Positions 45,198-63,567 of a DNA stretch of 64,000 bases are shown here, in pieces. The position numbers were made by a program, and so were the translations under genes. Every line of letters starts with the position of its first letter. Within the stretch, counting starts at the first letter, position 1. The stretch is taken from contig NZ_JAMXMC010000003.1 of the NCBI RefSeq assembly GCF_024055665.1, forward strand, positions 1 through 64,000, read 5' to 3'. This DNA is from Ideonella oryzae. Its GTDB lineage: Bacteria > Pseudomonadota > Gammaproteobacteria > Burkholderiales > Burkholderiaceae_C. The notes under the pieces were generated by a model that saw only the letters and a list, made by a program, of their open reading frames with translations, did not search any database and was not told where the DNA came from.

Positions 45198-45217
45198 GAA
45201 CCTTTCATTATAGGTTC
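45198..45217 (-). promoter_or_regulatory. alaS promoter -10 inside an inverted repeat
   Basis: A perfect TATAAT (minus strand, 45212-45207) is enclosed by the inverted repeat GAACCT/AGGTTC (45198-45203 and 45212-45217). It lies about 90 bases upstream of alaS. A repressor binding the repeat would occlude the -10. The -35 is not clear. Confidence 0.5.
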
Positions 45218-45635: not shown

Positions 45636-46667
45636 GTGACCCTGCTCGCCTGGCTGCCCGCGGCCTTTCGGCGCACACCGGCTCCTGCGACACCCGCCGG
45701 ACCGGCTTGGTTCCGTCGCGAAGAGGCGATCATGGGCACGGCCATCACCGCCGAGCTTTGGGCCGACAGCCCGGCCCAGGCGGAGCAGGCCCTGGGACTG
45801 GTGATGGACGAAATGCACCGGATCGACCGCTGCATGAGCCCGCACCGGGCGGACTCCGAGCTTTCCCGCATCAACCGGGAGGCAGCGTTGCACCCGGTGC
45901 CGCTGAGCCCGGAAATGGCCCGGCTGATCGACCGGGCCCTGACCTTCTCGGCCCTGTCCGAGGGGGCCTTCGACATCAGCTTTGCCGCGGTGGGCCAGCA
46001 CTACGACTACCGCACCGGCCAGGCGCCGGACGCGGCCACCCTGGCCCAGGCCCGCGCGGCCATCGGCTGGCGCGGCCTGCTGCTGGACCGCGCCGCGGGC
46101 ACCTTGCGCTTTGCCCGGCCGGGCATGCGCATCGACCTGGGCGGCTTTGCCAAGGGCCATGCGGTGGACAACGCCATGGCCCTGCTGCGGGCCCAGGGCA
46201 TCCGCCATGCCATGGTCTCGGCCGGTGGCGACAGCCATGTGCTGGGCGACCGGCGTGGCCGACCGTGGAGCGTGGCCATCCGCGATCCGCGCCGCGAGGG
46301 CGGCGTGGTGGCCGTGCTGCCGCTGGAGGACGTGTCGATCTCGACCTCCGGCGACTACGAGCGCTTCTTCGAGCGCGACGGCGTGCGGCACCACCACCTG
46401 CTGGACCCGCGCACGGGCGAATCCGCCCGCGGCGTGCGCAGCGTGACCATCCTGGCCCCCGATGGCCTGACGTGCGAAGCCCTGTCCAAGATGGTCTTCG
46501 TGCTGGGCCCGGCACGGGGCCTGGCCCTGATCCACACCTTGCCCGACGTCGATGCCGTCGTGATCGACGCCGAGGGCGCCATGCATGTCAGCCAGGGCCT
46601 GGCCCAACCGCTGGCCGAGGGGGCTGCGGCAGTCGCCGCCCCATCCCGGGGAGACCACACACCATGA
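45636..46667 (+). CDS. FAD:protein FMN transferase, ApbE family
   Basis: ApbE transfers FMN from FAD to a Thr/Ser of extracytoplasmic flavoproteins. With GTG 45636 as start the product has 343 residues. Family motifs are REEAIMGTAITAELW (28-42), the FAD-binding LGGFAKGHAVD (168-178), SAGGDSHVLG, and RHHHLLDPRTGESA (251-264). At the metal site the usual D-A-L-S-T reads E281-A-L-S-K285, so the Asp is Glu and the Thr is Lys. No clear signal peptide or lipobox is seen with this start, so localisation is open. GGGTGA lies upstream of the GTG. It heads the operon and overlaps the next gene as ATGA, so its substrate is probably among the following proteins. Confidence 0.85.
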   Translation: MTLLAWLPAAFRRTPAPATPAGPAWFRREEAIMGTAITAELWADSPAQAEQALGLVMDEMHRIDRCMSPHRADSELSRINREAALHPVPLSPEMARLIDRALTFSALSEGAFDISFAAVGQHYDYRTGQAPDAATLAQARAAIGWRGLLLDRAAGTLRFARPGMRIDLGGFAKGHAVDNAMALLRAQGIRHAMVSAGGDSHVLGDRRGRPWSVAIRDPRREGGVVAVLPLEDVSISTSGDYERFFERDGVRHHHLLDPRTGESARGVRSVTILAPDGLTCEALSKMVFVLGPARGLALIHTLPDVDAVVIDAEGAMHVSQGLAQPLAEGAAAVAAPSRGDHTP

Positions 46668-49663
46668 AGCACACCCTTCTTCCCAACCCGGGCCGGCGCC
46701 CGCTCGCCGCCGGTCTGCTGGCGGCACTGGGCCTGCTGGCCGGCCTGGCCGGCTGTTCCGGCAGCACCAGCGGCGGCGGCACCGCCACGGTGGCCGGCGA
46801 TGTGCCGCTGGTCTACGTGAAGCGTGCCGACACCCTGAACCTCAACCCGACCGACGGCGCCCCCTTCGCCCCCGGAGGGGACCTGATGCTGCGCGAGAAG
46901 TCCTCGCCCAGCGCCCCCGAGCACAACCTGACCCAGCAGTTCACCCAGGGCAAGGGTGATGTGTCCGGCCCCGAGGTGTCCTACGACGCCAAGAAGGTGG
47001 TGTTCGCCATGCGCTGCCCCAGCAGCAACACGGCCAAGATCAACGGCGCGGCCGCCTGTACCGGCCGCTGGAACCTCTGGGAATACGACATGAGCAGCGG
47101 CGGGCTCACCGGCGGCAGCTTCCGCCGGCTGACCGCCTCCACCACCGACGACGACGTGGACCCGGTCTACCTGCCGGGTCACCGCGGCTTCGTCTTCACG
47201 TCCAACCGCCAGACCAAGTCCCATCTGGACCAGGCCCTGGGGCGCAGCTATTACGCGCTGGACGAGTACGAGCGCCAGCGCGTGTTCAACCTGCACACCA
47301 TGGATGCCGATGGCGAATCGATCACCCAGATCTCCTTCAACCAGAGCCACGACCGCAGCCCGGTGATCCGTCCCAACGGCGACATCATGTTCTCGCGCTG
47401 GGACCATGTGGGCGACCGCAACCACTTCAAGATCTTCCGCATGAAGCCCGACGGCACGGACATGTTCGTGCTCTACGGCGCCCACAGCGAGGGCAACACC
47501 TACCTGCATCCGCGCGACATGGACCCGTCCGGCAAATACGCCGGCTACCTGTCCACCGATGCCATGCCCCTGCAGCGCTCGAAGGAAGGTGGTGCGCTGC
47601 TGTTGATCGACGCGGCCAACTACTCCGAGCAGAACACGCCGGCCAATTCCACGGTGCCCACCACCGGCGGACAGCAGCAGCTGACCGCGCAGGAACTCAA
47701 CATGGACCGCGGCTTCTCGCGCTACGGCCGCGTGACCACACCCTACCCGCTGTGGGACGGCACCAACCGGCTGCTGGTGGCCTACAAGCCCTGCGAGGTG
47801 ACCCGCAGCGGCGAGGTGGTGCCCTGCGCCAACCTCACGAGCGATGAGATCGCCCGGCTGGAGTCCACCGATCGCACCGAGGCCGAGATCGCGACCGACA
47901 CGGTGCAGGACAACGTGCCGCCGCACTACGCCATCTACATGTTCGACCCGGCCCAGCAGACCTGGCTGGTGGTGGCCGCCCCGCCCGCGGGCTTCATGTA
48001 CATCGACCCGGTGGCCCTGCAGGCGCGCACCGAGCCGCACACGGTGGAGGCCACCAACGTGGACGCCGATCTGGCGGCCCAGGGCCTGGGGCTGCTGGAG
48101 GTGCGCAGCGTCTACGACACCGACGGCCTGGGCCGCATGGGCGACGCGGTGCTGGGCACTGCCGACCTGAAGGGCAGCTGCACCACCGCCATCGCCAAGA
48201 CCACCCCCACCGACGCGCTGGACACCCGCGCCCAGGTGGCCGACCTGATCCGCATGAAGAACCCGGCCGACAGCGCCTACGGCTGCTCGCCCGCCCGCTT
48301 CGTGCGGGCGGTGCGCGCGGTCGCGCCGCCGGCCAACACGATGAACCTGCGCGAGGCCATCGGCGAGACCAACTTCGAGCCGCAGCAGATCCTGGGCTAT
48401 GCGCCGATCGAGCCCGACGGCTCCTTCAAGCTGGTGGTGCCGGCCGACACCCCAATCGGGCTGGCCGTGGTCGATTCGGAAGGCCGTGCCTTCCAGACCC
48501 ACACCAACTGGATCCAGATCCGGCCGGGCGAGCGCCGCACCTGCGACGGTTGCCACAGCCCGCGCCGCGGCGCCTCGCTCAACAGCGGCAGCATCGTCGA
48601 CACCATGCCCTCGGCGCTGCGCAGCGCCCTGGCCTCGGCCCACCTCTCGGGCGAGACCATGGCGTCCACCCGCACCCGGCTGGATGCCAATGCGCTCAAG
48701 CTCGTCTCCGACCTGATCTACCAGGACGCCTGGGCCGACACCACCCAGGCCGGCGTGACCGCCCGGCCCTCGATCAGCCTGCGCTACACCGGCAATGCCG
48801 ACCCCAGCCAGGACCTGGCCACGGCGGCGCCCACCAACGGCGTCATCAACTACCCGGACCACATCCAGCCGCTGTGGACCCGCAACCGGGGCAGCAACAC
48901 CTGCACCAGTTGCCACAACGCCAGCGCCAGCCTGAACCTGCTGGGCACCGTTGCCGGCTCCGGCCGTCTGGCCTCCTATGACGAGCTGCTGATCGGCGAC
49001 CCGGTGATCGACCCCAGCACCGGTCTGCCCAAGACCCAGCTCAAGAACGGCGTGCCCGAGGTGGTGCGTCAGCCTGCCCTGGTGGAAACCAGGGCCAGCG
49101 AGGGTGATGCCCTGGGGCTGGCCCGCAAGAGTCGACTCATGGAGATCCTGGCCGGCCAGTTGCTGATGTCCTCGGCCGACGCGCAGACCACCCATCCCAC
49201 GCCCACCAGCGTCAACCACGCCACCATGCTCAACGCGGCCGAGAAGCGCCTGCTGGCGGAGTGGATGGACCTGGGCGGCAAGTACTACAACGACCCCTTC
49301 AATGCCAACGCCGGCGTGCGCACGATCAGCACGCTCAGCCAGGAGAGCTTCGAGGCCAAGGTGCTGCCCATCTTGAACAGCACCTGCGCCACCTACTGCC
49401 ACATGGGCGTGGGCAGCGGCGCAGGCAAGTCCTTCATCGACAACCGCTTCGTGCTGACCGGCGACCCGGAGGGCGACTACAACGTCACGCTGACGATGAT
49501 CTCGGACACCTGCAACCCTGCCAGCAACACCCTGCTGAGCAAGCCGTCCACCCGCCCCCACCCCAGCGGCGCCACCGGCCAGACCACCGCGGTCCTGCCG
49601 GCCGGCAGCACCGATTTCGCCACCATCGTCCAGTGGATCGCCACCGGCTGCCCCACCCCATGA
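46664..49663 (+). CDS. HzsA-like multihaem lipoprotein with beta-propeller repeats
   Basis: A 999-residue lipoprotein (lipobox LAGC, C31). Residues about 50-330 contain PD40/WD40-like propeller blades (SYDAKKVVFAMR, DPVYLPGHRGFVFTSNRQ, HPRDMDPSGKYAGYLST), and FSRWDHVGDRNHFKIFRM resembles the middle domain of hydrazine synthase alpha. A Greek-key segment ending GERRTCDGCHSPRRG carries haem-c motif 1 (C627, C630, H631); motif 2 is CTSCH (C747-H751); motif 3 is C908-ATY-C912-H913, a CX3CH variant. It is therefore probably a secreted, membrane-anchored c-type cytochrome with electron-transfer or oxidase function. Hydrazine synthesis is not implied; anammox genes are absent. Coupled to apbE and to the next lipoprotein by ATGA overlaps. 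Confidence 0.85.
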   Translation: MKHTLLPNPGRRPLAAGLLAALGLLAGLAGCSGSTSGGGTATVAGDVPLVYVKRADTLNLNPTDGAPFAPGGDLMLREKSSPSAPEHNLTQQFTQGKGDVSGPEVSYDAKKVVFAMRCPSSNTAKINGAAACTGRWNLWEYDMSSGGLTGGSFRRLTASTTDDDVDPVYLPGHRGFVFTSNRQTKSHLDQALGRSYYALDEYERQRVFNLHTMDADGESITQISFNQSHDRSPVIRPNGDIMFSRWDHVGDRNHFKIFRMKPDGTDMFVLYGAHSEGNTYLHPRDMDPSGKYAGYLSTDAMPLQRSKEGGALLLIDAANYSEQNTPANSTVPTTGGQQQLTAQELNMDRGFSRYGRVTTPYPLWDGTNRLLVAYKPCEVTRSGEVVPCANLTSDEIARLESTDRTEAEIATDTVQDNVPPHYAIYMFDPAQQTWLVVAAPPAGFMYIDPVALQARTEPHTVEATNVDADLAAQGLGLLEVRSVYDTDGLGRMGDAVLGTADLKGSCTTAIAKTTPTDALDTRAQVADLIRMKNPADSAYGCSPARFVRAVRAVAPPANTMNLREAIGETNFEPQQILGYAPIEPDGSFKLVVPADTPIGLAVVDSEGRAFQTHTNWIQIRPGERRTCDGCHSPRRGASLNSGSIVDTMPSALRSALASAHLSGETMASTRTRLDANALKLVSDLIYQDAWADTTQAGVTARPSISLRYTGNADPSQDLATAAPTNGVINYPDHIQPLWTRNRGSNTCTSCHNASASLNLLGTVAGSGRLASYDELLIGDPVIDPSTGLPKTQLKNGVPEVVRQPALVETRASEGDALGLARKSRLMEILAGQLLMSSADAQTTHPTPTSVNHATMLNAAEKRLLAEWMDLGGKYYNDPFNANAGVRTISTLSQESFEAKVLPILNSTCATYCHMGVGSGAGKSFIDNRFVLTGDPEGDYNVTLTMISDTCNPASNTLLSKPSTRPHPSGATGQTTAVLPAGSTDFATIVQWIATGCPTP

Positions 49664-50259
49664 TGAAGTCACACCCTCTCCTTCTGGCGCTGGCCGGCCT
49701 GACGCTGGGCGCGGCCCTGGGCCTGAGCGGCTGCGGCGGCGGCAACCCGCTGGGCAATCCCTCGGATGTGCAGAACCCCGCGGGCACCGGCGGTGAAAAG
49801 CTCTCCTTCGCCTACTACCAGAAGTGCATCGAGCCGCTGCTGGTCCAGGCCATCGCCACGCCGTCCGGCGGCACAGCCACCTGCGCCGCAGGCGGTTGCC
49901 ACTCCAATGCCAATGGCACGGGCGGTGCGCTGCGCATCATCGAGACCGCCAGCGTGGTGGACCTCTCCGCCTCGGCCGACACCATCCGCGCCAGCGACAT
50001 CTACAAGAACTTCTACTCCGCCATGGGCGCCAGCGTGCCAGGCAACTCCGCCGAAAGCCGCTTGCTCAACAAGCCGCTGGTGCGGGGCGTGCTGCACGGC
50101 GGCGGCCAGATCCTGGCCAGTGAGAACGACCCGGTGGCCGTGCTGATCCGCTACTGGATCGACCACCCAGCCCCCGAAGGCCAGGACGAGTTCAGCACCG
50201 CTACCTACAGCATGTTCACCCCGGCCGACCCGGCCACCGGCAGCTGCAACACCCAATGA
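49660..50259 (+). CDS. Lipoprotein with CX4CH haem-type motif
   Basis: A 199-residue lipoprotein (lipobox LSGC, C25). After a short Gly/Asn-rich linker it has FAYYQKCIEPLL and then C75-AAGG-C80-H81, an expanded haem-c motif, in a layout like planctomycete-type small cytochrome domains in which an early Cys precedes the CxnCH. Axial ligation and haem attachment are not certain with four spacer residues. C-terminal IRYWIDHPAPEGQDEF resembles the end of such domains. Overlaps both neighbours as ATGA, so it is very likely a partner of the HzsA-like protein. Confidence 0.75.
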   Translation: MMKSHPLLLALAGLTLGAALGLSGCGGGNPLGNPSDVQNPAGTGGEKLSFAYYQKCIEPLLVQAIATPSGGTATCAAGGCHSNANGTGGALRIIETASVVDLSASADTIRASDIYKNFYSAMGASVPGNSAESRLLNKPLVRGVLHGGGQILASENDPVAVLIRYWIDHPAPEGQDEFSTATYSMFTPADPATGSCNTQ

Positions 50260-51095
50260 AGCCCATGCGCACCGCCCACACCCTTGCCGCCGCGCTGCTG
50301 CCGGCCCTGTTGCTGGTGGCGCCCGCCTGGGGGCAGGATGCCGCCACCGCCCCCCCCGCCGACACGGCGTCGGCCCCGGGCATCCTGGACCGCTGGTTCC
50401 CGCCCAAACCCCAAGGCCTGGATGCGCTGGAGCGCCTGCAGGTCACCGCGCCCTTCGTCGAGCTGCACACCGGCCCGGGCCGGGGCTACCCGGTGTTCCA
50501 TGTGGTCGAGCGCGAGGGCTGGATCACCGTCGTGCTGCGCCACACCGACTGGTACAAGGTGCGCACCGAGGACGGCAAGCTCGGCTGGGTCAGCCGCGAG
50601 CAGCTGGCCAGCACGCTCACCGCCTCGGGCGACCGCAAGACCTTCCGCGAGGTGGTGCTGGACGACTACCTGCGCCGCCGCGTCGAGATGGGCGCCACCT
50701 TCGGCCGCTTCGACTCCGAGCCGGTCATCAAGCTCTGGGGCGGCTACCGCCTGTCCGACACGCTCAGCGTGGAGCTGGCCTCCAGCCAGGTGCAGGGCGT
50801 CTATGCCGGCACCAGCCTGTGGCATGTGGCCCTGCTGACCGAGCCCTGGTTCAAGCAGCGCCTCTCGCCCTTCTTCGGCGTGGGCATCGGCCGCTTCCAC
50901 AACGTGCCCAACAAGAGCCTGATCGACGCCCACACCACCGACGCCAACCTGGGCATGGTCACGCTGGGCGTCAAGTACCACCTCAGCGAGCGCTTCGTCG
51001 CCCGGCTGGACTACGAACTCACCACGGCCTTCCTCTCCGACGAGAAGACCTCCGACTACGGCGCCTACAGCGCCGGCCTCTCCTTCTTCTTCTGA
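50256..51095 (+). CDS. SH3-domain outer-membrane beta-barrel protein
   Basis: A 279-residue exported protein: signal peptide to about residue 26 (LLLVAPAWG), a bacterial SH3-like domain at about 60-115 (APFVELHTGPGRGYPVFHVVEREG, then YKVRTEDGKLGWVSREQL), and a C-terminal eight-strand-type beta-barrel ending in FFF, the usual C-terminal Phe of BAM substrates. The SH3 part could bind peptidoglycan and tie the barrel to the wall. Its start overlaps the upstream lipoprotein stop; the next barrel gene follows 12 bases later. Confidence 0.8.
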   Translation: MKPMRTAHTLAAALLPALLLVAPAWGQDAATAPPADTASAPGILDRWFPPKPQGLDALERLQVTAPFVELHTGPGRGYPVFHVVEREGWITVVLRHTDWYKVRTEDGKLGWVSREQLASTLTASGDRKTFREVVLDDYLRRRVEMGATFGRFDSEPVIKLWGGYRLSDTLSVELASSQVQGVYAGTSLWHVALLTEPWFKQRLSPFFGVGIGRFHNVPNKSLIDAHTTDANLGMVTLGVKYHLSERFVARLDYELTTAFLSDEKTSDYGAYSAGLSFFF

Positions 51096-51107
51096 CCCCG
51101 CCTCACC

Positions 51108-51740
51108 ATGCGACGCTCCCTCCTTCCCCTGCTGCTCGCCGCGCCCCTGCTCACTCCCCTGGTCAGCCAGGCGGCCGACGCCGCCAGCGAAGCCCCCGTG
51201 CAGCCGCAGATCGACCGCCGCGACGTGCGGGTGCCGCGCTTCCCTTCCAACGATTTCGAGGTGGGTCTGTTCTTCGGCCCCTATTCCACGCAGAACTTCG
51301 GCAGCAGCATCGCCCTGGGCGGACGCCTGGGCTACCACATCACCGAAGACTTCTTCGTCGAAGCCGCCTACGGCCGCACCACGGTGAGCGACGACGCCTT
51401 CAAGCGCGTGCTGCCGGGCGGCGTCTTCACGCCGGGCGAGAACAAGCTCAGCTACAGCGACCTGTCGGTGGGCGTGAATGTGTTGCCCGGCGAGGTCTTC
51501 CTGGGTCGCGACCATGCCCTGCCCTCGCAGCTCTACCTGATCGCCGGTGCCGGCACCACCCACTTCAACGGCCAGCGCCAGCAGACCTTCAACTTCGGCC
51601 TGGGCACCAAGGTGTACTGGAACGACAGCTTCGCGCTGCGGGTGGACCTGCGCGACCACGTCTTCTCGCTGGACCTGCTGGGCAAGCGCGACAGCACCCA
51701 CAACCTCGAGCTGACCGCCGGCGCCTCCTTCCTGTTCTGA
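51108..51740 (+). CDS. Outer-membrane beta-barrel protein, myxobacterial-type family
   Basis: A 210-residue protein with a signal peptide (TPLVSQA, cut near 22) and a barrel of alternating strands ending in SFLF. The strand NDFEVGLFFGPYSTQNFGSS and LGYHITEDFFVEAAYGRT match the outer-membrane barrel family found in myxobacteria and some other proteobacteria next to gliding-type motors. It pairs with the preceding SH3 barrel; the similarity at the C termini suggests the two are paralogues. Predicted location is the outer membrane. Confidence 0.78.
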   Translation: MRRSLLPLLLAAPLLTPLVSQAADAASEAPVQPQIDRRDVRVPRFPSNDFEVGLFFGPYSTQNFGSSIALGGRLGYHITEDFFVEAAYGRTTVSDDAFKRVLPGGVFTPGENKLSYSDLSVGVNVLPGEVFLGRDHALPSQLYLIAGAGTTHFNGQRQQTFNFGLGTKVYWNDSFALRVDLRDHVFSLDLLGKRDSTHNLELTAGASFLF

Positions 51741-51743
51741 GCC

Positions 51744-52250
51744 ATGCCCATGTTGTTGCGCCGTGCCCTGGTCCTGTCCTCGCTGGGTCTCCTGTCCTTC
51801 ACCGCCGCTCAGGCGGCCACACCCGCCCCGGGCGGCACCGCGCCGGATTTCACCCTGCGCGCCCTGCACGGCCCCAACCTGCGCCTGAAGGAGCAGCGTG
51901 GCCAGGTCGTACTGCTGAACTTCTGGGCCAGCTGGTGCGGCCCTTGCCGTGAAGAGATGCCCCAGCTCGACCGGCTCTACCGCAAGTACCAGTCGGCCGG
52001 CTTCACCCTGTTGGGCGTGAGCGTGGACGACGACCCCAAGGCCGCTGGCGCCATGGCCGACAAGCTGGGCGTGGCCTTCCCGGTGCTGCTCGACAGCGAC
52101 AAGCAGGTCAGCAAGGCCTATGACCTCAGCGCCATGCCCTCGACCGTGCTGATCGACCGCGACGGCCGCGTGCGCTACCTGCACCGCGGCTACCGCGACG
52201 GTTTCATCGCCACCTACGAACAGCAGATCCGCGAGCTGCTGAAGGACTGA
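51744..52250 (+). CDS. TlpA-type periplasmic thioredoxin
   Basis: A 168-residue exported thioredoxin-like protein: signal peptide to about residue 25, then APDFTLRALHG and the redox-active C65-GP-C68 in NFWASWCGPCREEMPQ, and the cis-Pro loop SAMPSTVLID. Proteins of this class reduce or isomerise periplasmic cysteines, including apocytochrome CXXCH. In this operon it may keep the haem-binding cysteines of the two lipoproteins, or the CGC tail of the DUF4266 protein, reduced. Three bases separate it from the neighbouring gene on each side. Confidence 0.9.
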   Translation: MPMLLRRALVLSSLGLLSFTAAQAATPAPGGTAPDFTLRALHGPNLRLKEQRGQVVLLNFWASWCGPCREEMPQLDRLYRKYQSAGFTLLGVSVDDDPKAAGAMADKLGVAFPVLLDSDKQVSKAYDLSAMPSTVLIDRDGRVRYLHRGYRDGFIATYEQQIRELLKD

Positions 52251-52253
52251 GCC

Positions 52254-52499
52254 ATGCCCCTGCCCTTCTCTTCCCCGCCGCGCGCCTTGCTGCTGCTGGG
52301 CCTGGCCCTGGCCGGCCTCTGCGGCGGCTGCAGCACCGAGCCCTGGGTCAAGCCCTACGAGCGCGAGCGCCTGGCCGACCCGATGATGCAGTTCTCGCGC
52401 GAGGTCCTGGCCGACAAGCAGCGCGACCACGTCTACTCGGTGCGCGAAGGCGCCCGCGGCGCCACCGGCGTGCAAGGAGGTGGCTGTGGCTGCAACTGA
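52254..52499 (+). CDS. DUF4266 small lipoprotein
   Basis: An 81-residue protein of the DUF4266 family: hydrophobic signal region, a Cys at 26 (GLCGGC, an atypical lipobox), the family block EPWVKPYERERLADPMMQF, and the invariant-looking tail GGGCGCN with C78 and C80. The C-X-C tail suggests a metal, haem or disulfide role. It is nearly always found with a DUF3570 gene, as here. Its last 14 bases overlap the DUF3570 start, and the AAGGAGG within its 3' end is the DUF3570 ribosome binding site. Confidence 0.88.
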   Translation: MPLPFSSPPRALLLLGLALAGLCGGCSTEPWVKPYERERLADPMMQFSREVLADKQRDHVYSVREGARGATGVQGGGCGCN

Positions 52500-54233: not shown

Positions 54234-56296
54234 CGCGTCCGAGTTCCGCCTTGTCCCGGCGCCCGCTGCCCCTGCTCGCGCCCCTGCTGATCGCGGGATG
54301 GATGCTGGCCGGGCCCGCCCGCGCCGCCTCCGACCCGCCCGAGCCCGAACACGTGGTGCGGGCCCCGCACTATGGCGAAGTGCTGTTCCACTTCCACCAG
54401 GATCAGACCTTCACCGCGCTCACCTCGCTGATGGTCTCGCAGCAGTTCGACCGCCTGGGCGTGCACGCCGACGAGGCCGAGGTGCTGCGCGGCGGCCTGC
54501 TGCTGTCCTACGGCATGCACCGCGAGGCCGGCCAGGTCTTCGAGCGCCTGATCGACCACGGCGCCACGCCCGAAGTGCGCAACCGCGCCTGGTACTACCT
54601 GGCCCGGGTGCGCTACACCCGGGGTGAGCCGCAGGCCGCCGATGCCGCCCTGGCCCATATCCAGGGCGAACTGCCCGGCGCACTCGACGACGACCGGCGC
54701 CTGCTGCAGGCCCAGGTCAAGCTGGCCCTGGCCCAACCCGCCCTGGCGGCCGAGGCCCTGACCCCGCTGGCCAGCGCCGATCAACCCCGCCCGCCAGCGC
54801 CCGCGCCGGTGGACGAGGACAACCCGCCGCCGCGCCCGGGCCTGCTGGCCCGCCTCAAATCTCTGGTGCTGGCCCCCTTCAGCGGCCCGGACCCGCTGGC
54901 CGCCAACGATGCCGACGCCCGGCTGTTCGCCCGCTACAACCTGGGCATCGCCCTGATCCGCCAGGGCGACGCGACCGGCGGCACCCGCTGGCTGGACGCG
55001 CTGGGCCAGATGCCCGCGGCCAACGAGGAGCAGCGTGCCCTGCGCGACCAGGCCAACCTGGCCCTGGGCTACGCCGCCCTGCAGCGCGAGGCGCCCGAGC
55101 AGGCCCGCCAGTACCTGGAACGCATCCGCCTGAAGGGCCCCAGCTCGGACAAGGCCCTGCTGGGCTACGGCTGGGCCGCCCTGGGCCTGAAGCAGCCCAA
55201 GCTGGCGCTCGTCTCGTGGACCGAACTGGCCCAGCGCGACCCGTCCCAGCCTGCCGTGCAGGAGGCCCGCCTGGCGGTGTCCTACGCCCTGGCCGAGCTG
55301 GGGGCTGACACCCAGGCCCGCGACGGCTACCAGTCGGCCCTGGGCAGCTACCAGGACGAGGACCAGCGCCTGGGCGAGGCCATCGCCGCGCTGGAGGACC
55401 CGGCCTGGCTGGACGAGCTGCTGGCCCGCAACCCGGGCGTGGAGATGGCCTGGTTCCGCGACGCCGAGGACGTGCCCCACCTGCCGCACCTGCGTCTGCT
55501 GGCCCCGGCCCTGGCCGGCCACGCCTTCCAGGAGAGCTTCAAGACCTGGCGCGACCTGCGCTTCCTGCAGGACAACCTGGCCGCCTGGCAGGAGACCCTG
55601 GCCGTCTACCGCACCATGCTGGATGAACGCCGCAAGGCCTTCCAGGAGCGCCTGCCCGACGTGGCCAGCCAGCGCCAGCAACTGGACTCGGCCGCGCTGC
55701 TGCCGCGCCAGCAGCAGCTCGACGGCGAACTGGCCCAGGCCGAGGCGGACGCCGATGGCCGCGCCTTTGCCGACCCGGCCCAGCGCGCCTTGCTGCAGCG
55801 TGCCGACCGCGCCCGCGACACCCTGGCCCGGCTGCAGGCCGCGCCCGCCGGCCAGGACGTGCCCACCGCCACACTGCAGGACGCCGCCGAGCGCCTGCGC
55901 ATCCTGCAGGGCCTGCTGGCCTGGGACCTGAGCCAGGCCTACCCGGAACGCCGCTGGGCCGCCCGCAAGGCCCTGGGGGACAGCGCCCAGGGGCTGCAAC
56001 AGGCCCAGGCCGCCCGCCAGGCCCTGGACCAGGCCGCGCGCGACGAGGCCCAGCGCTTCGTGCAGTTCCAGCAGCGCATCGACGAACTGTCCCGCCGCAT
56101 CCAGGCCCTGCAGGCCCCGCTGGCCACGGCCAGCACCCAGCAGGCTCAAGCCCTGAGCCGGCTGGCCCAGGACGGCCTGCGGCAACAGCAGGAACGCCTG
56201 GCCGGCTACGCCCAGCAGGCCCGCTACGCCCTGGCCCAGTTGCTGGACCGCGGCCGTGACGCATCGACGGAACCCGAGCATGCCCCGACGCCCTGA
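54230..56296 (+). CDS. Periplasmic TPR/coiled-coil protein, 688 residues
   Basis: An exported protein (signal peptide to about 33, GPARA) of which the first 400 residues are helical repeats of TPR type (for example EVRNRAWYYLARVRYTRG, ARLFARYNLGIALIRQGD, LALGYAALQREAPEQARQYLE, LGYGWAALGLKQPKLALVSW) and the last 250 are Gln/Ala-rich long helices predicted as coiled coil (RWAARKALGDSAQGLQQAQ onward). A Pro-rich break separates repeats near residue 190. Such proteins scaffold envelope complexes; Glt-type gliding machines use comparable TPR periplasmic proteins. Starts at GTG 54230 overlapping the previous stop. Confidence 0.8.
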   Translation: MTRPSSALSRRPLPLLAPLLIAGWMLAGPARAASDPPEPEHVVRAPHYGEVLFHFHQDQTFTALTSLMVSQQFDRLGVHADEAEVLRGGLLLSYGMHREAGQVFERLIDHGATPEVRNRAWYYLARVRYTRGEPQAADAALAHIQGELPGALDDDRRLLQAQVKLALAQPALAAEALTPLASADQPRPPAPAPVDEDNPPPRPGLLARLKSLVLAPFSGPDPLAANDADARLFARYNLGIALIRQGDATGGTRWLDALGQMPAANEEQRALRDQANLALGYAALQREAPEQARQYLERIRLKGPSSDKALLGYGWAALGLKQPKLALVSWTELAQRDPSQPAVQEARLAVSYALAELGADTQARDGYQSALGSYQDEDQRLGEAIAALEDPAWLDELLARNPGVEMAWFRDAEDVPHLPHLRLLAPALAGHAFQESFKTWRDLRFLQDNLAAWQETLAVYRTMLDERRKAFQERLPDVASQRQQLDSAALLPRQQQLDGELAQAEADADGRAFADPAQRALLQRADRARDTLARLQAAPAGQDVPTATLQDAAERLRILQGLLAWDLSQAYPERRWAARKALGDSAQGLQQAQAARQALDQAARDEAQRFVQFQQRIDELSRRIQALQAPLATASTQQAQALSRLAQDGLRQQQERLAGYAQQARYALAQLLDRGRDASTEPEHAPTP

Positions 56297-59200
56297 GCCC
56301 CGCCACCTGACTGTCCTGGCGGCTGCCGTCTCGGTGGCCTGGCTGGGCGGCTGCAGCCTGTGGTCGTCCCGCCCGGCGGGTGACGACGAGCCCACCCTGC
56401 GCACCCTGGCCGAGCGCACGCCCCCGGCCATCCAGACCGGGAAGCTGCGCAGCACCGAGGACCAGGCCCTGGCCGCCTGGCGCGCCCTGCTGGCGGCGCA
56501 GCCCGATCCCCGCCAGCGCGCCCAGGCCCTGCGCCGACTGGGCGACCTGGAGATGGACCGCAGCGACAGCGCGCTGGCCGCCGACACCGGCGCCTCGGCG
56601 CCACAGGCCAGCCACCGCGAAGCCATCGCCAGCTACCAGGCCTACCTGAAGTCCTACCCCCAGGCCCCGGACAACGACCGCGTGCTCTACCAGCTCGCCC
56701 GGGCCCACGAACTGGATGGCGAACCCGAGGCCGCGCTGGCCACGCTGGACCGCCTGGTGGCCAGCTACCCGACCACCCGTTATCTGGACGAAGCCCAGTT
56801 CCGGCGCGGCGAGCTGCTGTTCACCGCCCGCCAGTACCCGGCGGCCGAGCAGGCCTACAGCGCCGTGCTGGCGCGTGCCGAGCCCACCGTCTTCCACGAC
56901 CGGGCGCTCTACATGCAGGGCTGGTCGCGCTTCAAGCAGGGCCAGCTCGACGGCGCGCTCGAGGCCTTTCTGCGGGTGCTCGACGGCAAGCTGGCCGACC
57001 AGGACCCGGCCGTGCCGCTGGAACAACTCGACAGCCTGAGCCGGGCCGACCGCGAACTGCTGGACGACAGCTTCCGCGTCGTCAGCCTGACGCTGGAGAA
57101 CCTGCAGGGCGCGGCCAGCATCCCGCCGGTCACCGCCAGCCCGGCCCGCCAGCACTACCAGGTGCGCCTGTACCGGCGGTTGGCGGCGCTCTACCTGCAG
57201 CAGGACCGCCCCAAGGACGCGGCCGACACCCTGCTGGCCTTCACCCGGCTGCGGCCGGAGGACGCCCAGGCGCCCGCCCTGCAGGACGAGGTGATCGGCA
57301 TCTACGCCCAGGCCGGCTTTGCCCAGCAGGCCCAGCAGGTCAAGGTGGACTTCGTGACCCGCTACGGCGCCCAGGGGGCCTACCGCCAGGTCAACCCCGA
57401 AGCCTGGCAGGACGCCCAGCCCCAGGTGCGCGAGCACCTGGCCGAACTGGCCCGCCAGGCCCACGCCCAGGCGCAGCAAAGCCACGCCCCCGCCGACGTG
57501 GCCCAGGCCGTGCAGTGGTACCGCACCCTGCTGACCGACTTCCCGGACCACCCGGAAGCGGCCGAGAACCGCTTCCTGATGGCCGAGCTGCTGTTCGAGG
57601 CGCGCCGCTTCGACGAGGCCGCCCTGGCCTACGAACAGACGGCCTACCCGGCACAGGAAGGCATGGCCCGCAGTGCCCCCGCCCGGCGCACCGAGGCCGG
57701 CTACGCCGCCGTGCTGGCCCGCGCCGAGCTGGTGAAGGCCGCCCCGCAGGCGAGCCGCCCGGCGCTGGAGCGGGACCAGGTGGCCAGCGAGCTGCGCTTT
57801 GCCCAGGCCTTCCCCGCCGACAGCCGCGCCCCGGCCGTGCAGGCCCACGCCGCCGAGACGCTGTACCGCCTGGGCGACGCCGCCGGTGCCAATGCCGCCG
57901 CGCTGGCCCTGCTGCAACGCCAGCCCGCCGCCCCCGAGGCCCAGCGCCGCACGGCGCTGAACGTGCTGGCCCACACCCGCTTCGAGGCCGGCGCCTTCGA
58001 CGAAGCCGAGCGCTACACCCGCGAGGCCCTGGCCCTGACCCCGGCCGCCGACGCCAGCCGGCGCGACCTGACCGAACGCCTGGCCGCCTCGCTCTACAAG
58101 CAGGGCGAGCAGGCCCGCACGGCCGGCGACACCCGGCGCGCCGCCGAGCTGTTCGGCCGCGTCACCACCGAGACCCCCGAGGCCAGCGCCCGGGTGGCCG
58201 CGCAGTTCGACGCCGCCACCCAGCGCCTGGCGCTGAAGGACTGGGCCGGTGCCAGCCAGCTGCTGGAGGACTTCCGCCAGCGCTTCCCGCGCGAGGCGCT
58301 GCAGGCCCAGGTGCCGCCCAAGCTGGCCCTGGCCTACAGCGAGCAGGGCCGCTGGGCCGCCGCCGCGGCCGAGGCCGAGCGCATCGCGCAGAGCGAGACG
58401 GACCCCGAGCGCGCCCGGGCCGCCCGCTGGCAAGCCGCCCAGTGGTACGACCAGGCCCAGGCCGCCCCTGGCGCCGCACCCCGTGCCCGCGCCGAGGCCG
58501 CCCGCAGCTGGGAGGCCTACTGGCGCGCCCACCCGCAGCCCCTGCCCGAGGCCATCGAGGCCCTGAACCACCTGGTGTTGCTGGCCCATGCGGACGGACA
58601 GACCCCGCGCGAACGCCAATGGCAGCGCACCCTGGTGCAGGCCGAGGCGGCGGGCGGCACCGCCCGCACCGAGCGCAGCCGCAGCCTGGCGGCCCAGGCC
58701 GCGCTGGCCCTGGCGGACGAGGATGGCGAGGCCTTCCGCGCCGTGGCGCTCAAGGAGCCGCTGCAAAAGAGCCTGGCCAGCAAGAAGGCCCGGCTGGAAA
58801 CGGCCCTGCAGGCCTATGGCCGCGTGGCCGACTACGGCACGGCCGAAGCGGTCACCGCCGCCACCTTCCGCACCGCCGCGCTGTACCAGGACTTCGGCCG
58901 CGCGCTGATGGACTCCGAGCGCCCGCGCAAGCTCAGCAAGCTCGAGCGCGAGCAGTACGACGTGATGCTGGAGGAGCAGGCCTATCCCTTCGAGGAAAAG
59001 GCCATCGGCCTGCACGAGGCCAACGCCGCCCGGGCGCCGCAGGGCCTGTACGACCGCTGGGTGCGCCAGAGCTTCGACGCCCTGCGCACGCTGCGCCCGG
59101 CCCGCTGGGCCAAGGCCGAGCGCGAGGCGCCCTGCGGGGCTGGCGCGGCCCTGACCCGCCAGGGCCTGGCCGCCCGGCAGGACGGCAACTTCGTGGCCGC

Positions 59201-59474
59201 GGGGCAGGCCTGGGCCCAGGCCCTGAAAACCGACGCCGCCTGCGCCGCCGCGGCCCTGAACCTGGGCGTGCTCAACGACCTCTACCTGGGCTCGCCCGAA
59301 GAGGCCCTGCGCTGGTACCAGCAGTACCAGACGCTGGCCGCCGCACAGGGCCTGGGCGCCGACGCCCAGGTCGGCAAATGGATCACCGAGGTGCAGCGCC
59401 GCCTGCCCAAGCCCGCCGCTCCGGAAGCCGCCCCGAACGCTGCCTCCGCGCCCGCCAAGGAGACTACCCCATGA
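56280..59474 (+). CDS. Large TPR lipoprotein
   Basis: A 1064-residue lipoprotein (lipobox LGGC, C25) composed almost entirely of TPR-like repeats, such as DNDRVLYQLARAHELDGEP, YLDEAQFRRGELLFTARQYP, ENRFLMAELLFEARRFDEA, AQRRTALNVLAHTRFEAG and, at the C terminus, AAALNLGVLNDLYLGSPEEA. It should form a long solenoid on the periplasmic face of the outer membrane. ATG 56280 is preferred to GTG 56256 because the signal peptide fits directly after it; either start overlaps the upstream gene. Size and order (two TPR genes just before the TolQ-ExbD genes) are reminiscent of Agl-Glt clusters. Confidence 0.82.
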   Translation: MPRRPEPRHLTVLAAAVSVAWLGGCSLWSSRPAGDDEPTLRTLAERTPPAIQTGKLRSTEDQALAAWRALLAAQPDPRQRAQALRRLGDLEMDRSDSALAADTGASAPQASHREAIASYQAYLKSYPQAPDNDRVLYQLARAHELDGEPEAALATLDRLVASYPTTRYLDEAQFRRGELLFTARQYPAAEQAYSAVLARAEPTVFHDRALYMQGWSRFKQGQLDGALEAFLRVLDGKLADQDPAVPLEQLDSLSRADRELLDDSFRVVSLTLENLQGAASIPPVTASPARQHYQVRLYRRLAALYLQQDRPKDAADTLLAFTRLRPEDAQAPALQDEVIGIYAQAGFAQQAQQVKVDFVTRYGAQGAYRQVNPEAWQDAQPQVREHLAELARQAHAQAQQSHAPADVAQAVQWYRTLLTDFPDHPEAAENRFLMAELLFEARRFDEAALAYEQTAYPAQEGMARSAPARRTEAGYAAVLARAELVKAAPQASRPALERDQVASELRFAQAFPADSRAPAVQAHAAETLYRLGDAAGANAAALALLQRQPAAPEAQRRTALNVLAHTRFEAGAFDEAERYTREALALTPAADASRRDLTERLAASLYKQGEQARTAGDTRRAAELFGRVTTETPEASARVAAQFDAATQRLALKDWAGASQLLEDFRQRFPREALQAQVPPKLALAYSEQGRWAAAAAEAERIAQSETDPERARAARWQAAQWYDQAQAAPGAAPRARAEAARSWEAYWRAHPQPLPEAIEALNHLVLLAHADGQTPRERQWQRTLVQAEAAGGTARTERSRSLAAQAALALADEDGEAFRAVALKEPLQKSLASKKARLETALQAYGRVADYGTAEAVTAATFRTAALYQDFGRALMDSERPRKLSKLEREQYDVMLEEQAYPFEEKAIGLHEANAARAPQGLYDRWVRQSFDALRTLRPARWAKAEREAPCGAGAALTRQGLAARQDGNFVAAGQAWAQALKTDAACAAAALNLGVLNDLYLGSPEEALRWYQQYQTLAAAQGLGADAQVGKWITEVQRRLPKPAAPEAAPNAASAPAKETTP

Positions 59475-59779
59475 CCTCGCATCCCTCACTCACGCTGGCC
59501 CTCGGCCTCGGTTGGCTGCTGCCCCTGGCGCTGACCGTTCCCGGCGCCGCCCGGGCCCAGGACCAGGCCGAGGTGGCGCCCAGCAAGATCATCGGCAACC
59601 GTGAGCTGCCCAAGGTCCTGTACTTCGTGCCCTGGAAGAAGCCACTGACCGATCCGCTGGCCGGCAAGCCCCCGGCCAGCGTGCTCGACGAGGTGCTCTC
59701 GCCGATCGACCGCGAGGTCTTCCGTCGCAACGAGCGCTTCACGGCTGCGGCCACCGCCGCCTCGGCCCCCGCGCCCTGA
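59471..59779 (+). CDS. Small exported protein next to the motor genes
   Basis: A 102-residue protein that starts at ATG 59471, overlapping the TPR lipoprotein stop as ATGA. It has a signal peptide (LGLGWLLPLALTVPGAARA), then the block PSKIIGNRELPKVLYFVPWKKP, and an Ala-rich tail. I do not recognise a named family but the KIIG-ELPKVLY-VPWKK block looks conserved in type. Its frame is open far upstream, so an automatic caller may bury it in a longer false ORF. Probably a periplasmic accessory of the TolQ/ExbD motor. Confidence 0.7.
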   Translation: MTSHPSLTLALGLGWLLPLALTVPGAARAQDQAEVAPSKIIGNRELPKVLYFVPWKKPLTDPLAGKPPASVLDEVLSPIDREVFRRNERFTAAATAASAPAP

Positions 59780-59840
59780 ACCCGTCCCCGTTTCCTCTTC
59801 GACCCTTTCCCCACGCATCGCGCCCCCGGAGTTCCCCGCC

Positions 59841-60491
59841 ATGACCACCTTTGAATCCATCGTCAAGTTCTTCCAGGACTGCGGCCTGTTCATCATCCCC
59901 AGCCTGACCATCATGGCCATCGGGCTGAGCATCGCGATCGAGCGCTTCATCTTCCTGCGCCGCGCCCGGCGCGAGAACAGCGCCCTGTGGGCCCAAGTGC
60001 AACCCATGCTGCAGCAGGCCCAGTGGAAAGAGGTCTACAGCGTGGCCAGCAAGAGCGACGCAGCGCTGGGCAAGCTGGTGAGCAACGGCCTGCAGCGCCT
60101 GCAGAGCTCGCGCAAGCGCGAGGACATCGACGCCTCGATGGAGGAAGGCATGATGGAGATCGTGCCGCGCCTGGAGAAGCGCACCCACTACATCGCCACC
60201 TTCGCCAACGTCATCACGCTGGTGGGCCTGCTGGGCACCATCTCGGGCCTGATCAAGGCCTTCACGGCGGTGGCCCAGGTGAACCCGGCCGAGAAGGCCG
60301 AGCTGCTGTCGGGCTCCATCTCCATCGCCATGAACAACACCGCCTTCGCGCTGGGCGTGGCCATCCCCTTCCTGCTGATCCACGCCTTCCTGCAGGCCCG
60401 CACCGGCGAGATCGTCGACGGCCTGGAAGCCGCCAAGATCAGCTTCCTGAACCTGGTGCAGCGCCTGGCCCCCGAAGCCGGCAGCCGCTGA
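59841..60491 (+). CDS. MotA/TolQ/ExbB proton-channel protein
   Basis: A 216-residue inner-membrane protein with the three-helix TolQ/ExbB topology: helix 1 at about 15-38 (GLFIIPSLTIMAIGLSIAIE), a cytoplasmic region, then helices 2 and 3 containing NVITLVGLLGTISGLIKAF and SIAMNNTAFALGVAIPFLLI with the conserved channel Thr and the Pro of helix 3. It would form the pentameric ring around the ExbD-type subunits that follows proton flow. The 61-base gap before it is the largest inside the operon. Confidence 0.92.
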   Translation: MTTFESIVKFFQDCGLFIIPSLTIMAIGLSIAIERFIFLRRARRENSALWAQVQPMLQQAQWKEVYSVASKSDAALGKLVSNGLQRLQSSRKREDIDASMEEGMMEIVPRLEKRTHYIATFANVITLVGLLGTISGLIKAFTAVAQVNPAEKAELLSGSISIAMNNTAFALGVAIPFLLIHAFLQARTGEIVDGLEAAKISFLNLVQRLAPEAGSR

Positions 60492-60516
60492 GCCGCCGGC
60501 CCGAGAAAGCGCAACC

Positions 60517-61029
60517 ATGCGAGTCCGACGCCTGCGCAAGACACCGGCGGCGCTGGAGGTCACGGCCTTCATCAACCTGATCGTGGTGCTCGTGCCCTTC
60601 CTGCTGTCCACCGCGGTGTTCACCCGGCTGGCGGTGCTGGAGCTGTCGCTGCCGGCGAAATCCGCCGGGGTGGAGCAGCTCAAGGTCGACCACCTGCAGC
60701 TCGAGGTGGTCATCCGCCCGGACGCCCTGGACGTGGGCGACCGCGTGGGTGGGCTGATCCAGCACATCCCGCACACGGCCCAGGGCCCCGACCTGAAGGC
60801 GCTCAACGCGCTGGTCATGCAGGTCAAGGCCAAGTACCCCGAACAGAAGGACGCCACCATCCTGGCCCAGCCCGACACGCCCTATGAACTGCTGGTCAAG
60901 GTGATGGACGCCACCCGCGAGGGCCGCACCGCCCGCGAGGACGGCCAGGTCGTCAAGGCCGAGCTGTTCCCGGCCCTCTCCATCGGCGACGCGCCGCGCG
61001 GCACCCCCGCCGCGGCCCACGGAGGCTGA
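60517..61029 (+). CDS. ExbD/TolR-like protein lacking the channel aspartate
   Basis: A 170-residue single-pass protein with ExbD topology: short basic N terminus, transmembrane helix FINLIVVLVPFLLSTAVF (about 18-36) and a periplasmic domain. At the position of the invariant proton-carrying Asp of ExbD/TolR/MotB-type helices (usually LIDV) it has Asn20 (codon AAC) in FINL. The C-terminal half contains TILAQPDTPYELLVKVMDATRE, the normal ExbD ending. It precedes an intact ExbD, so the two probably form a heterodimer in one motor. Confidence 0.87.
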   Translation: MRVRRLRKTPAALEVTAFINLIVVLVPFLLSTAVFTRLAVLELSLPAKSAGVEQLKVDHLQLEVVIRPDALDVGDRVGGLIQHIPHTAQGPDLKALNALVMQVKAKYPEQKDATILAQPDTPYELLVKVMDATREGRTAREDGQVVKAELFPALSIGDAPRGTPAAAHGG

Positions 61030-61030
61030 C

Positions 61031-61534
61031 GTGCCCACCCTCACGCCCCTGCAGAAGCGGGCCGCCCGCAAAGCCCGCAACCACACCGATCTGGACATGA
61101 ACCTGGTGTCCCTGATCGACGTGTTCACCATCCTCATCTTCTTCCTGCTGTCCAACTCGTCCGAGGTGGACATCCTGCCCAGCACGAAGAGCGTGCGCCT
61201 GCCCGAATCCACCGCCGAGGTGGCGCCCCAGGACACCCTGGTGGTGGTGGTCAGCCCCGAGGAGATCATCGTGGACGGAAAGACCGTGGCCCGCGTGGCC
61301 GACGTGCAGGCCGCCCCCACCGACCTGATCGCCCCGCTGACCGCGGCCCTGCAACAGCAGCAGGCGACCCGCCGCGCGGTGCGGGCCGAGAACGCCCCGC
61401 TCAGCCAGGTCGTCACCATCATGGGTGACCAGAGCATTCCCTACCAGCTGCTGCGCAAGGTGATGACCAGCTGTGCCCAGGCCGGCTTCAGCGACGTGCG
61501 CTTTGCCGTGCGCCAGAAGGTGGAGAAGACATGA
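61031..61534 (+). CDS. ExbD/TolR-like protein with channel aspartate
   Basis: A 167-residue ExbD homologue. The helix MNLVSLIDVFTILIFFLLSN keeps the catalytic Asp30, and the periplasmic domain ends with TIMGDQSIPYQLLRKVMTSCAQAGFSDVRFAV, typical of ExbD. Starts at GTG 61031 with GGAGG five bases upstream, one base after the stop of the preceding ExbD gene. Two unequal ExbD proteins with one TolQ are the arrangement of the Myxococcus AglR-AglQ-AglS motor. Confidence 0.93.
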   Translation: MPTLTPLQKRAARKARNHTDLDMNLVSLIDVFTILIFFLLSNSSEVDILPSTKSVRLPESTAEVAPQDTLVVVVSPEEIIVDGKTVARVADVQAAPTDLIAPLTAALQQQQATRRAVRAENAPLSQVVTIMGDQSIPYQLLRKVMTSCAQAGFSDVRFAVRQKVEKT

Positions 61535-62658
61535 GCGCCGCTGCCGTGAGCTTTCGCCAGCCGGTGCTGGCCTGGGCCAATGCCCCGGACGACGAGACGC
61601 GCTTTCGCCGCATCTTCGTCCAGGTGGCCGTGCTGTGCCTTCTGCTGGGGCTGGTCACGCACTTCGTGACCCTGCCCGAGCGACAGCCGGACGAGGCCCA
61701 GGCCCTGCCCGCACCGATGGCCCAGCTGCTGCTGGACAAGGACAAGGCCGCTGCGCCCCCGCCCAAGCCGCTGGCACCCACGCCGGCCGAGCAGGCCCGC
61801 AAGGAGCCGGTCAAGGAGACCCCGGAGGCCACGCCGCCGAAAGAGACCGCCCGCCCGGCACCAGCGCCCGCCGGCAAGAAGAACGCCGCCCCGGTGCCCG
61901 AAGCGCGCCAGCCGGTCGAAGGCAAGCCGCCGGGCGAGATTGGTGAGGCCCGCCGCCGCGCCTCGGGCGTCGGCCTGCTGGCCATGAAGGACCAGTTGGC
62001 CGCGCTGCAGGGCGCGCCCGCGGCGGTGCAGCTCAAGGAAGTGACACCCGGCCCCGGTGTGGGCACGAACAAGGGCGTGGGCGTGGGGGCCGGCACCCAG
62101 CCCGGCCTGCCCGACCGGGCGCTCATCACCTCGACCGCCACCGGCGGCAGCGGCGGCATCAACACCGCGGGCCTGAGCAAGGACACCGGCGGCGGCGGCC
62201 TGGCCGGCCGATCCACCACGCTGGTGGCGGGGGTGGCCGGTGGTGGCGGTGGCCCCGGCGGTGGCGGCGGCAAGGGTGGCACCGGCGGGAATGGCGCCGG
62301 GGGCACGGGCACGGGAGGCAACGGCACGGGCGCCGGGGGAACCGTGCAGCGCGGCCACAGCGGCAAGGCCGCCCGCTCGCTGGAAGAGATCCGCCTGGTC
62401 TTCGAGCGCAACAAGGGCGCCATCTACGCCATCTACAACCGCGCCCTGCGCGAGGACCCTTCGCTGCAAGGCAAGGTGGTGGTGGAGCTGCGCATCGCCC
62501 CGTCCGGTCAGGTCACCGGCTGCACCCTGGTGTCCAGCGAGCTGAAGACGCCCGAGCTGGAGCAGAAGCTGCTCGCCCGCATCCGCCAGTTCGACTTCGG
62601 CGCCAAGGATGTGGACGAGATGGTGGTCAAGTGGCCATTGGACTTCCTGCCCTCCTGA
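61531..62658 (+). CDS. AgmX/PglI C-terminal domain, TonB-like energy transducer
   Basis: A 375-residue protein with TonB-like design: cytoplasmic N terminus, one transmembrane helix (IFVQVAVLCLLLGLVTHFV, about 31-49), a Pro/Lys-rich periplasmic stretch (residues 65-140), a Gly-rich linker (about 225-272), and a C-terminal AgmX/PglI domain (SLEEIRLVFERNKGAIYAIYNR, LQGKVVVELRIAPSGQV, LLARIRQFDFG). AgmX-type proteins act with AglRQS motors in Myxococcus gliding and sporulation. Here it would carry force from TolQ-ExbD to an outer-membrane partner. Last gene of the operon; starts inside the ExbD stop (ATGA). Confidence 0.85.
   Translation: MSAAAVSFRQPVLAWANAPDDETRFRRIFVQVAVLCLLLGLVTHFVTLPERQPDEAQALPAPMAQLLLDKDKAAAPPPKPLAPTPAEQARKEPVKETPEATPPKETARPAPAPAGKKNAAPVPEARQPVEGKPPGEIGEARRRASGVGLLAMKDQLAALQGAPAAVQLKEVTPGPGVGTNKGVGVGAGTQPGLPDRALITSTATGGSGGINTAGLSKDTGGGGLAGRSTTLVAGVAGGGGGPGGGGGKGGTGGNGAGGTGTGGNGTGAGGTVQRGHSGKAARSLEEIRLVFERNKGAIYAIYNRALREDPSLQGKVVVELRIAPSGQVTGCTLVSSELKTPELEQKLLARIRQFDFGAKDVDEMVVKWPLDFLPS
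62220..62341 (+). repeat. Gly-rich low-complexity stretch in the AgmX-like gene
   Basis: About 120 bases of GGC/GGT/GGG-type codons encode the flexible glycine linker of the AgmX-like protein. The run is prone to slippage and could vary in length between strains. Confidence 0.6.
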
Positions 62659-62680
62659 CGGGCTGCAGGCCGGCAGCGCG

Positions 62681-62686
62681 GACAAT
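62681..62686 (+). promoter_or_regulatory. Candidate -10 element of the deoxyribosyltransferase gene
   Basis: GACAAT ends six bases before ATG 62693, with no SD, the same spacing as at the MFS gene. A leaderless transcript is inferred. The -35 is not recognisable. Confidence 0.4.
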
Positions 62687-62692
62687 GCCGGC

Positions 62693-63416: not shown

Positions 63417-63567
63417 GGTGGCTCTCCTGTCAGAAAGGAAGTGGTGGCGTGCGTGATCTTGCGCAAACTTCGCGCTGAATGCAGTGCTCGGCTATGCGGG
63501 ACATTGCACCAGCGGCTGGCGCCACTGCGTCTTTTGGTGTAGACGCTGCACCGTTCAGGGTGCGCGT

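Follow-up and report, generated by a model that had tools for sequence, protein, structure and literature searches.

The Agl-Glt core complex (AglRQS together with GltC, GltD, GltE and GltG) is described in the available text of Luciano et al. (2011; PMC3169522) as having an unknown function in gammaproteobacteria, where the core is also presented as a standalone machinery (PMC3858216). In Myxococcus xanthus, gltB-gltA-gltC encode two paralogous outer-membrane barrels and a periplasmic tetratricopeptide repeat (TPR) protein that bind one another (PMC4488436), a single Agl motor is able to serve two modules (PMC3858216), and the Myxococcus cargo is slime or a spore polymer. The flavinylation clusters of Meheust et al. 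(2021; PMC8238504) bring together ApbE, DUF3570, DUF4266 and a thioredoxin, and flavinylation of an SGAS-type DUF3570 was demonstrated there experimentally; the words ExbD and TPR are absent from the main text of that article. Here we describe a cluster of sixteen genes (g01 to g16) at positions 45636-62658 of contig NZ_JAMXMC010000003.1 of Ideonella oryzae, within a window (the whole stretch of DNA analyzed) of 64,000 nucleotides, in which a redox half of the flavinylation type is joined to a motor half of the Agl-Glt type. Within open-licence PMC text, preprints being outside this scope, no literature joining the two halves was found.

All sixteen genes lie on the + strand in the order ApbE, haem lipoproteins, small barrels, TlpA, DUF4266, DUF3570, g09, TPR proteins, g12, TolQ/AglR, two ExbD and transducer, with junctions of -20 to +61 bases in a check of the open reading frames, in agreement with an earlier note on this DNA that had claimed a tightly packed, unidirectional set. 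Like the Agl-Glt core, the motor half combines TolQ, two ExbD proteins, an AgmX/PglI transducer, TPR proteins and one or more additional genes in one cluster (PMC3169522); unlike it, this half is tied to a flavin/haem module and to GltA/GltB-like barrels, and its GltD-like and GltE-like parts form one gene in the window. The earlier note was right that each half has known relatives, both having been published separately, but its proposal of a new class cannot be kept for the motor half, whose content matches that of the core complex already published by Luciano et al. Given the computed gene content, order and recurrence, the sixteen genes probably encode a single Agl-Glt/Nfs-type machine that spans the envelope and carries an electron-transfer complex as its outer-membrane cargo, and the cluster is best read as a third machine of this type with a flavin/haem cargo that is new to the kind.

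Recurrence of the array and a redox half that rarely occurs without the motor

DUF3570 is present in 49 of 399 genomes of the same order, and the window proteins were mapped onto 54 stretches of at most 20 kb around DUF3570 matches, the window's own included. The complete array occurs in order in I. oryzae itself and at two other loci, L034 and L074, the latter from a different family, and L035 carries g01 to g11 until the contig ends; the other 50 stretches, the second DUF3570 locus of I. oryzae among them, showed no motor gene. The search led by g09, which was found in 87 of 370 genomes sampled over the class, comprised 80 class-sample places picked mostly by score from a longer g09 list and 80 named loci, the best 80 of 507 relatives and skewed to Burkholderiales, all annotated with iterated profiles. 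A near-complete array (g01, g02, g04-g11a and g13-g16, where g11a is the GltD-like part of g11) lies on one strand in 53 of 164 g09 loci, a number that includes four near-copy pairs, and in 52 of 160 after near-copies were merged, so that the conserved neighborhood for which the earlier note had suggested a search does exist. Cultured bearers are Piscinibacter aquaticus (L204), Piscinibacter caeni (L228), Caldimonas caldifontis (L224), Sapientia aquatica (L229) and Rhizobacter sp. OV335 (L246). Among the 80 class-sample places, at least three redox families were found in 31, one or two in 11 and none in 28, the remaining 10 being truncated upstream (<6 kb there). A phylum-wide search of 299 genomes found g09 in 12, all of them the own genome, the same family or the same class. 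Because the order repeats in other genera and families, the array is beyond chance.

The redox half depends on the motor nearly one-sidedly. When counted at 100 bits or above with a profile of four Burkholderiales rows, which leaves out weaker HZS_alpha matches (17-52 bits), some of them in genomes without g09, g02 is present in 54 of the 370 class genomes, and 53 of these, covering 31 of 32 families, also have g09; the sole exception (G429) has a fragmentary g02 of 137.7 bits. The claim of the earlier note that the halves form one unit is thereby borne out at the level of a recurring genetic unit. In 50 of the 53 genomes with both genes g09 scores at least 150 bits, a line between redox-linked and core-only g09 that was chosen after the scores were seen, and the spacing between g02 and g09 in these 50 is at most 15 kb in 39 and 17-24 kb on one contig in two. 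Five genomes have g09 above 150 bits and lack g02 at 100 bits; in four of them (G413, G478, G430 and G557) the g09 locus (L115, L135, L165 and L168) includes other redox genes, and the g09 of the fifth (G756) lies on a 6.5-kb contig. In 21 redox-linked class-sample loci no g13-g16 were found within 7-10 kb downstream of g09. In each of these 21 genomes an AglR belonging to the g13 subfamily is encoded elsewhere, with best matches of 344-377 bits, followed by four further copies at 307-340 bits and then, after a gap, by a next match at 132. A second g09 match is present in 14 of these 21 genomes versus 3 of 31 others (Fisher 3.7e-5), and these second copies therefore fit one motor shared between two modules, as published for Agl with Glt and Nfs in M. 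xanthus.

Motor, outer-membrane platform and redox proteins

The motor consists of one MotA/TolQ/ExbB protein and two ExbD proteins that adjoin the transducer. The subfamily of g13 stands clearly apart from other TolQ and ExbB proteins and is of AglR type; a Tol-Pal or TonB-ExbBD assignment was rejected (TolQ model 56.7 of 221 bits, ExbB model 37.2 of 206.2). In 104 of 110 rows, from the two cluster types alike, g14 has asparagine in place of the membrane aspartate, whereas g15 retains the aspartate in 109 of 109 rows, and the ExbD pair is therefore unequal. Besides its AgmX/PglI C-terminal match, g16 scores far below the cut-off of the full-length GltG model (30.4 of 650) and exceeds the cut-off of TIGR01352 with its TonB-like C-terminus; a PDB sequence search with g16 returned mainly glycine-rich linker matches to antibody constructs. 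The 1064-residue g11 corresponds to two separate genes in L034 and L074 (944 and 935 residues for the larger, 246 and 289 for the smaller), and GltE is the best model for the separate small homologues (55 and 43 bits; cut-off 225), although for the homologue in L118 the Tgl model scores above GltE.

The g05 protein has a Pfam barrel match and exceeds the cut-off of TIGR04565 (OMP_myx_plus). Its paralogue g04, which has an added SH3 domain, falls below the TIGR04565 cut-off, and the Pfam barrel match of g04 is likewise below cut-off. As in gltB-gltA-gltC (PMC4488436), two paralogous small barrels are found near a TPR protein; in contrast to Myxococcus, the order here is barrel, barrel, TlpA, DUF4266, DUF3570 and g09 before the GltC-like g10. 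Since g05 and g04 resemble GltA and GltB, the outer-membrane end of the motor is probably inside the redox half, with the redox genes set into the Glt platform. Domain searches bear out the gene content given by the earlier note, and the barrels that it placed in between are more likely a GltB/GltA-type outer-membrane platform.

The largest redox protein, g02, contains two CxxCH motifs and one CX3CH motif in the window; its homologues mostly have two to three CxxCH motifs, with an additional CX3CH in 23 of 104. Comparison with hydrazine synthase alpha (PDB 5c2v) aligned 66 residues of the middle domain, ending at a CxxCH. A function as hydrazine synthase was rejected, with NF052339 at 51.2 bits against an equivalog cut-off of 800 and no beta-gamma subunit identified among the sixteen genes. 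The g03 protein is related to the C-terminal part of g02 (hhalign 92%); its CX4CH is an unusual haem-motif spacing and is found in 59 of 60 homologues. A porin-cytochrome conduit of MtrCAB type was also rejected, the MtrB/PioB family PF11854 having no match in the own genome.

The AlphaFold2 model of g08 is a 16-strand barrel (predicted local distance difference test score, pLDDT, 86.1; predicted template modeling score 0.80). Its Foldseek matches in the PDB are outer-membrane barrels with PelB at the top and PgaA-type and BcsC barrels lower, together with general porins and FadL; sequence profiles of g08 and g09 found no convincing solved relative. The loop joining strands 3 and 4 holds the position equivalent to the flavinylation motif (local pLDDT ~53). 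This loop is on the longer-loop side, and the loop lengths suggest that the motif would face the outside. Standalone ApbE/DUF3570/TlpA loci exist, one of them in I. oryzae itself, and in a FastTree phylogeny of 86 rows a single branch with support of 100 splits 51 motor-linked from 35 standalone DUF3570 proteins; the linked proteins thus differ from the published flavinylation clusters (PMC8238504) in forming a separate branch with an altered motif. The standalone locus of the own genome (L031; contig C3, ~55137-56171) has the canonical SGAS and no motor, and constitutes a natural control.

A proposed redox-cargo machine and its alternatives

In the proposed machine, the g13 channel and the unequal ExbD pair (aspartate in g15, asparagine in g14) would turn proton flow across the inner membrane into movement of g16, and the force would be relayed through the periplasmic TPR proteins g10 and g11 and through g09 to the g05/g04 outer-membrane platform. 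The cargo would be the DUF3570 barrel g08, probably with a covalent flavin attached by ApbE (g01), physically associated with the two haem lipoproteins (g02 and g03); g06, a thioredoxin, and g07, a lipoprotein with CxC, would supply this cargo or keep it reduced. The motor may then place, move or open the complex on the cell surface, giving electrons access to an extracellular partner. The pairing recurs in many bacterial families, and the cluster is therefore probably one machine acting on cell-surface electron transfer. A redox cargo for the motor is a good inference from these data, and our best guess is that the motor would move or gate this cargo.

Several observations weigh against this picture. 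The flavinylation-motif position that is glycine in 46 of 50 standalone DUF3570 proteins is asparagine in 50, serine in 29 and glycine in only 11 of 99 linked ones, and g08 lacks both [ST]GA[ST] motifs, having SNAS and TTAS instead, although a looser Dxx[ST]xA[ST] motif is found in 92 of the 99. Most Burkholderiales ApbE copies of the cluster have no hydrophobic signal, as judged from hydrophobicity alone in the linked loci, and the DUF3570 beside them has SNAS in the place of the standalone SGAS. The two features go together in the 59 linked loci with both proteins readable: ApbE without a hydrophobic N-terminus accompanies asparagine in DUF3570 in 38 of 41, and ApbE with one accompanies serine or glycine in 15 of 18. 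This pairing falls mostly in one clade and may perhaps reflect a single change; in the branch with the altered motif the flavin may have been lost or may be attached in the cytosol. In most gammaproteobacterial (gamma) copies the ApbE signal is kept and DUF3570 has serine or glycine. On the motor side, g10 and g11a have no match to the Glt models, their likeness to GltC and GltD lying in size, order and TPR content, and the GltA/GltB-like naming of g05 and g04 derives from model score, paralogy and order rather than from M. xanthus sequences. No inner-membrane electron donor, DsbD included, was found among the sixteen genes, although 316 flavinylation clusters without DsbD were counted in PMC8238504.

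The linkage itself has exceptions that count against a single machine. Of the 87 g09 genomes, 34 lack g02, so that the motor must work without it there; these are a minority of the sample, and at least four of them have other redox genes at the locus, so that the core described as standalone is not the common form here. The earlier note had named routine separation of the halves, with separate promoters, as the outcome that would speak against it, and this is mostly not what is seen, given the 39 of 50 genomes with close spacing; however, g02 and g09 lie on different contigs in 9 of the 50, and the redox genes are on the opposite strand in 14 class-sample loci, where separate promoters must therefore exist (a fifteenth, L194, has only a weak TlpA match). 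Distances of redox and motor proteins correlate (r 0.43-0.79 for six pairs, with 0 of 500 permutations as high, next to 0.69 and 0.88 for two motor-motor pairs), and these values still contain shared descent. Co-occurrence statistics such as those for the second g09 copies are likewise inflated by shared ancestry, but the count by family and the genomes in which the halves are unlinked speak for a functional tie.

Assembly or export is an unlikely alternative, in which the motor would drive both haem lipoproteins and g08 through the outer membrane or insert them there, much as in type IX secretion, and the finished complex would be motor-independent. It accounts for the same linkage data and fits the large TPR proteins of the operon and the fold matches of g08, which begin with the export barrel PelB but also include porins and FadL; yet such proteins can be exported by the usual routes for lipoproteins and barrels, standalone DUF3570 loci do without an adjoining motor, and the redox proteins showed no identifiable secretion signal domain. 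Energized uptake coupled to reduction is improbable. Here the TonB-like end of g16 would open a barrel while the flavin, haem and thiol proteins reduce a metal or metal complex (iron or copper) for uptake, and both the TIGR01352 match and the possible iron role of DUF3570 clusters raised in PMC8238504 would suit it, but there is neither a TonB-dependent receptor domain nor an inner-membrane transporter among the sixteen genes. We regard as equally improbable that the redox proteins are helpers in folding, sensing or control, with a polysaccharide or an adhesin as the real cargo, as in Myxococcus. The core-only clusters and the LamG lectin domain in a partner protein of 17 gamma loci point in this direction, whereas a DUF3570 barrel in the outer membrane and a pair of large haem proteins would be costly as helpers, and no gene for a polysaccharide or an adhesin is present among the sixteen.

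Variants, features and implications

Several gamma loci carry additional candidate cargo beside g02 or ApbE, namely a one-haem PSD2-like protein in 34 loci, the LamG-lectin protein, mostly with two CxxCH motifs, in 17 loci, and a protein whose start is Tat-like in 18 loci; examples are L117:11531-16934, L138:3594-9308 and L237:2852-8697. The Tat-like partner, of 550 residues with an RR start judged by eye, has no Pfam or NCBIfam match over cut-off, and its L237 copy has no PDB match. In the opposite-strand loci L275 and L278 the order g02, g04, g05, g06, g07, g08 is kept. The core-only loci L169, L172, L173 and L175-L193 are Glt-type without redox genes, and several of these genomes also hold a redox-linked copy. 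A FastTree phylogeny of g11a was built from 79 gammaproteobacterial rows, unrooted, with no outgroup and with long-branch warnings, with 46 rows labeled redox because a redox gene lay in the stretch retrieved and the other 33 labeled none. Redox-linked rows are scattered over this tree, and most core-only rows belong to a supported clade of 13 or a group of 6, the others being a few singles. The 12 label changes are an overcount because rows with the redox half elsewhere or on a cut contig score as none. In this tree without an outgroup, duplication followed by loss of the redox half would account for the pattern more readily than repeated gain. The redox-linked form may be the older one in gammaproteobacteria, and the gliding and sporulation machines of Myxococcus may be relatives with a changed cargo.

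The features of the cluster are collected in Table 1. A scan of positions 45200-63500, which is weak evidence and not decisive, found no sigma-70-like promoter (mean of 0.4 in shuffles) and two terminator-like sites, both on the - strand (mean of 5.8). The start of g01 is GTG 45636 or ATG 45732, without an obvious Sec signal. The closest named genome among the matches listed is Ideonella sp. B508-1, with ~95% DNA identity over 7 kb.

Table 1. Genes of the cluster in the I. oryzae window, with positions, strand and basis of assignment
Gene	Position	Strand	Product	Basis
g01	45636..46667	+	ApbE flavin transferase	PF02424 1.4e-79
g02	46664..49663	+	999-residue haem lipoprotein with HZS_alpha middle domain	PF18582 1.6e-18
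g03	49663..50259	+	Haem lipoprotein with CX4CH	No Pfam match; akin to g02 C-terminal part
g04	50256..51095	+	SH3 domain and small barrel, GltB-like	Position and paralogy to g05
g05	51108..51740	+	Small outer-membrane barrel, GltA-like	TIGR04565 148.6 bits (cut-off 60)
g06	51744..52250	+	TlpA/ResA-type thioredoxin, WCGPC	Redoxin/AhpC-TSA
g07	52254..52499	+	DUF4266 small lipoprotein, C-terminal CGCN	PF14086 1.5e-22
g08	52480..53637	+	Motor-linked DUF3570, predicted 16-strand outer-membrane barrel	PF12094 2.4e-29; motif DMVSNAS-DVVTTAS
g09	53637..54233	+	Exported protein, helix and beta-sandwich, marker of motor type	Model pLDDT 86.4
g10	54230..56296	+	TPR-like periplasmic protein, GltC-like	Size and order; TPR below cut-off
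g11	56280..59474	+	TPR protein, fused GltD-like and GltE-like genes	TPR over cut-off
g12	59471..59779	+	Small exported protein	No family match; present in core-only clusters too
g13	59841..60491	+	TolQ/AglR-type proton channel protein	PF01618 (MotA_ExbB) 1.1e-25; separate subfamily
g14	60517..61029	+	ExbD-type, Asn at membrane proton site	PF02472
g15	61031..61534	+	ExbD-type, Asp at membrane proton site	PF02472
g16	61531..62658	+	GltG/AgmX-like transducer, TonB-like C-terminus	NF033768 65.8 bits (cut-off 40)

What the core complex does in gammaproteobacteria that do not glide has stood as an open question since 2011 (PMC3169522; PMC3858216), and most class-sample g09 genomes hint at the same answer, the flavin/haem module being almost never found without the motor (53 of 54). 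The question is directly testable in cultured Piscinibacter, Caldimonas, Rhizobacter and Sapientia. A partner and a likely location are also gained for the motor-linked DUF3570 branch and for one set of HZS_alpha proteins from outside the anammox bacteria; in its available text, a 2025 survey mentions no further function with experimental confirmation for its best structural hits (PMC12758564). We tentatively raise the possibility that the cluster encodes a proton-powered surface motor devoted to electron transfer, the first of its sort, which would carry or gate the redox proteins at the outer membrane, spending proton-motive force on bringing flavin and haem centers to an outside partner. 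If this is true, electron transfer would join the short list of cargoes of the Agl-type motor family.

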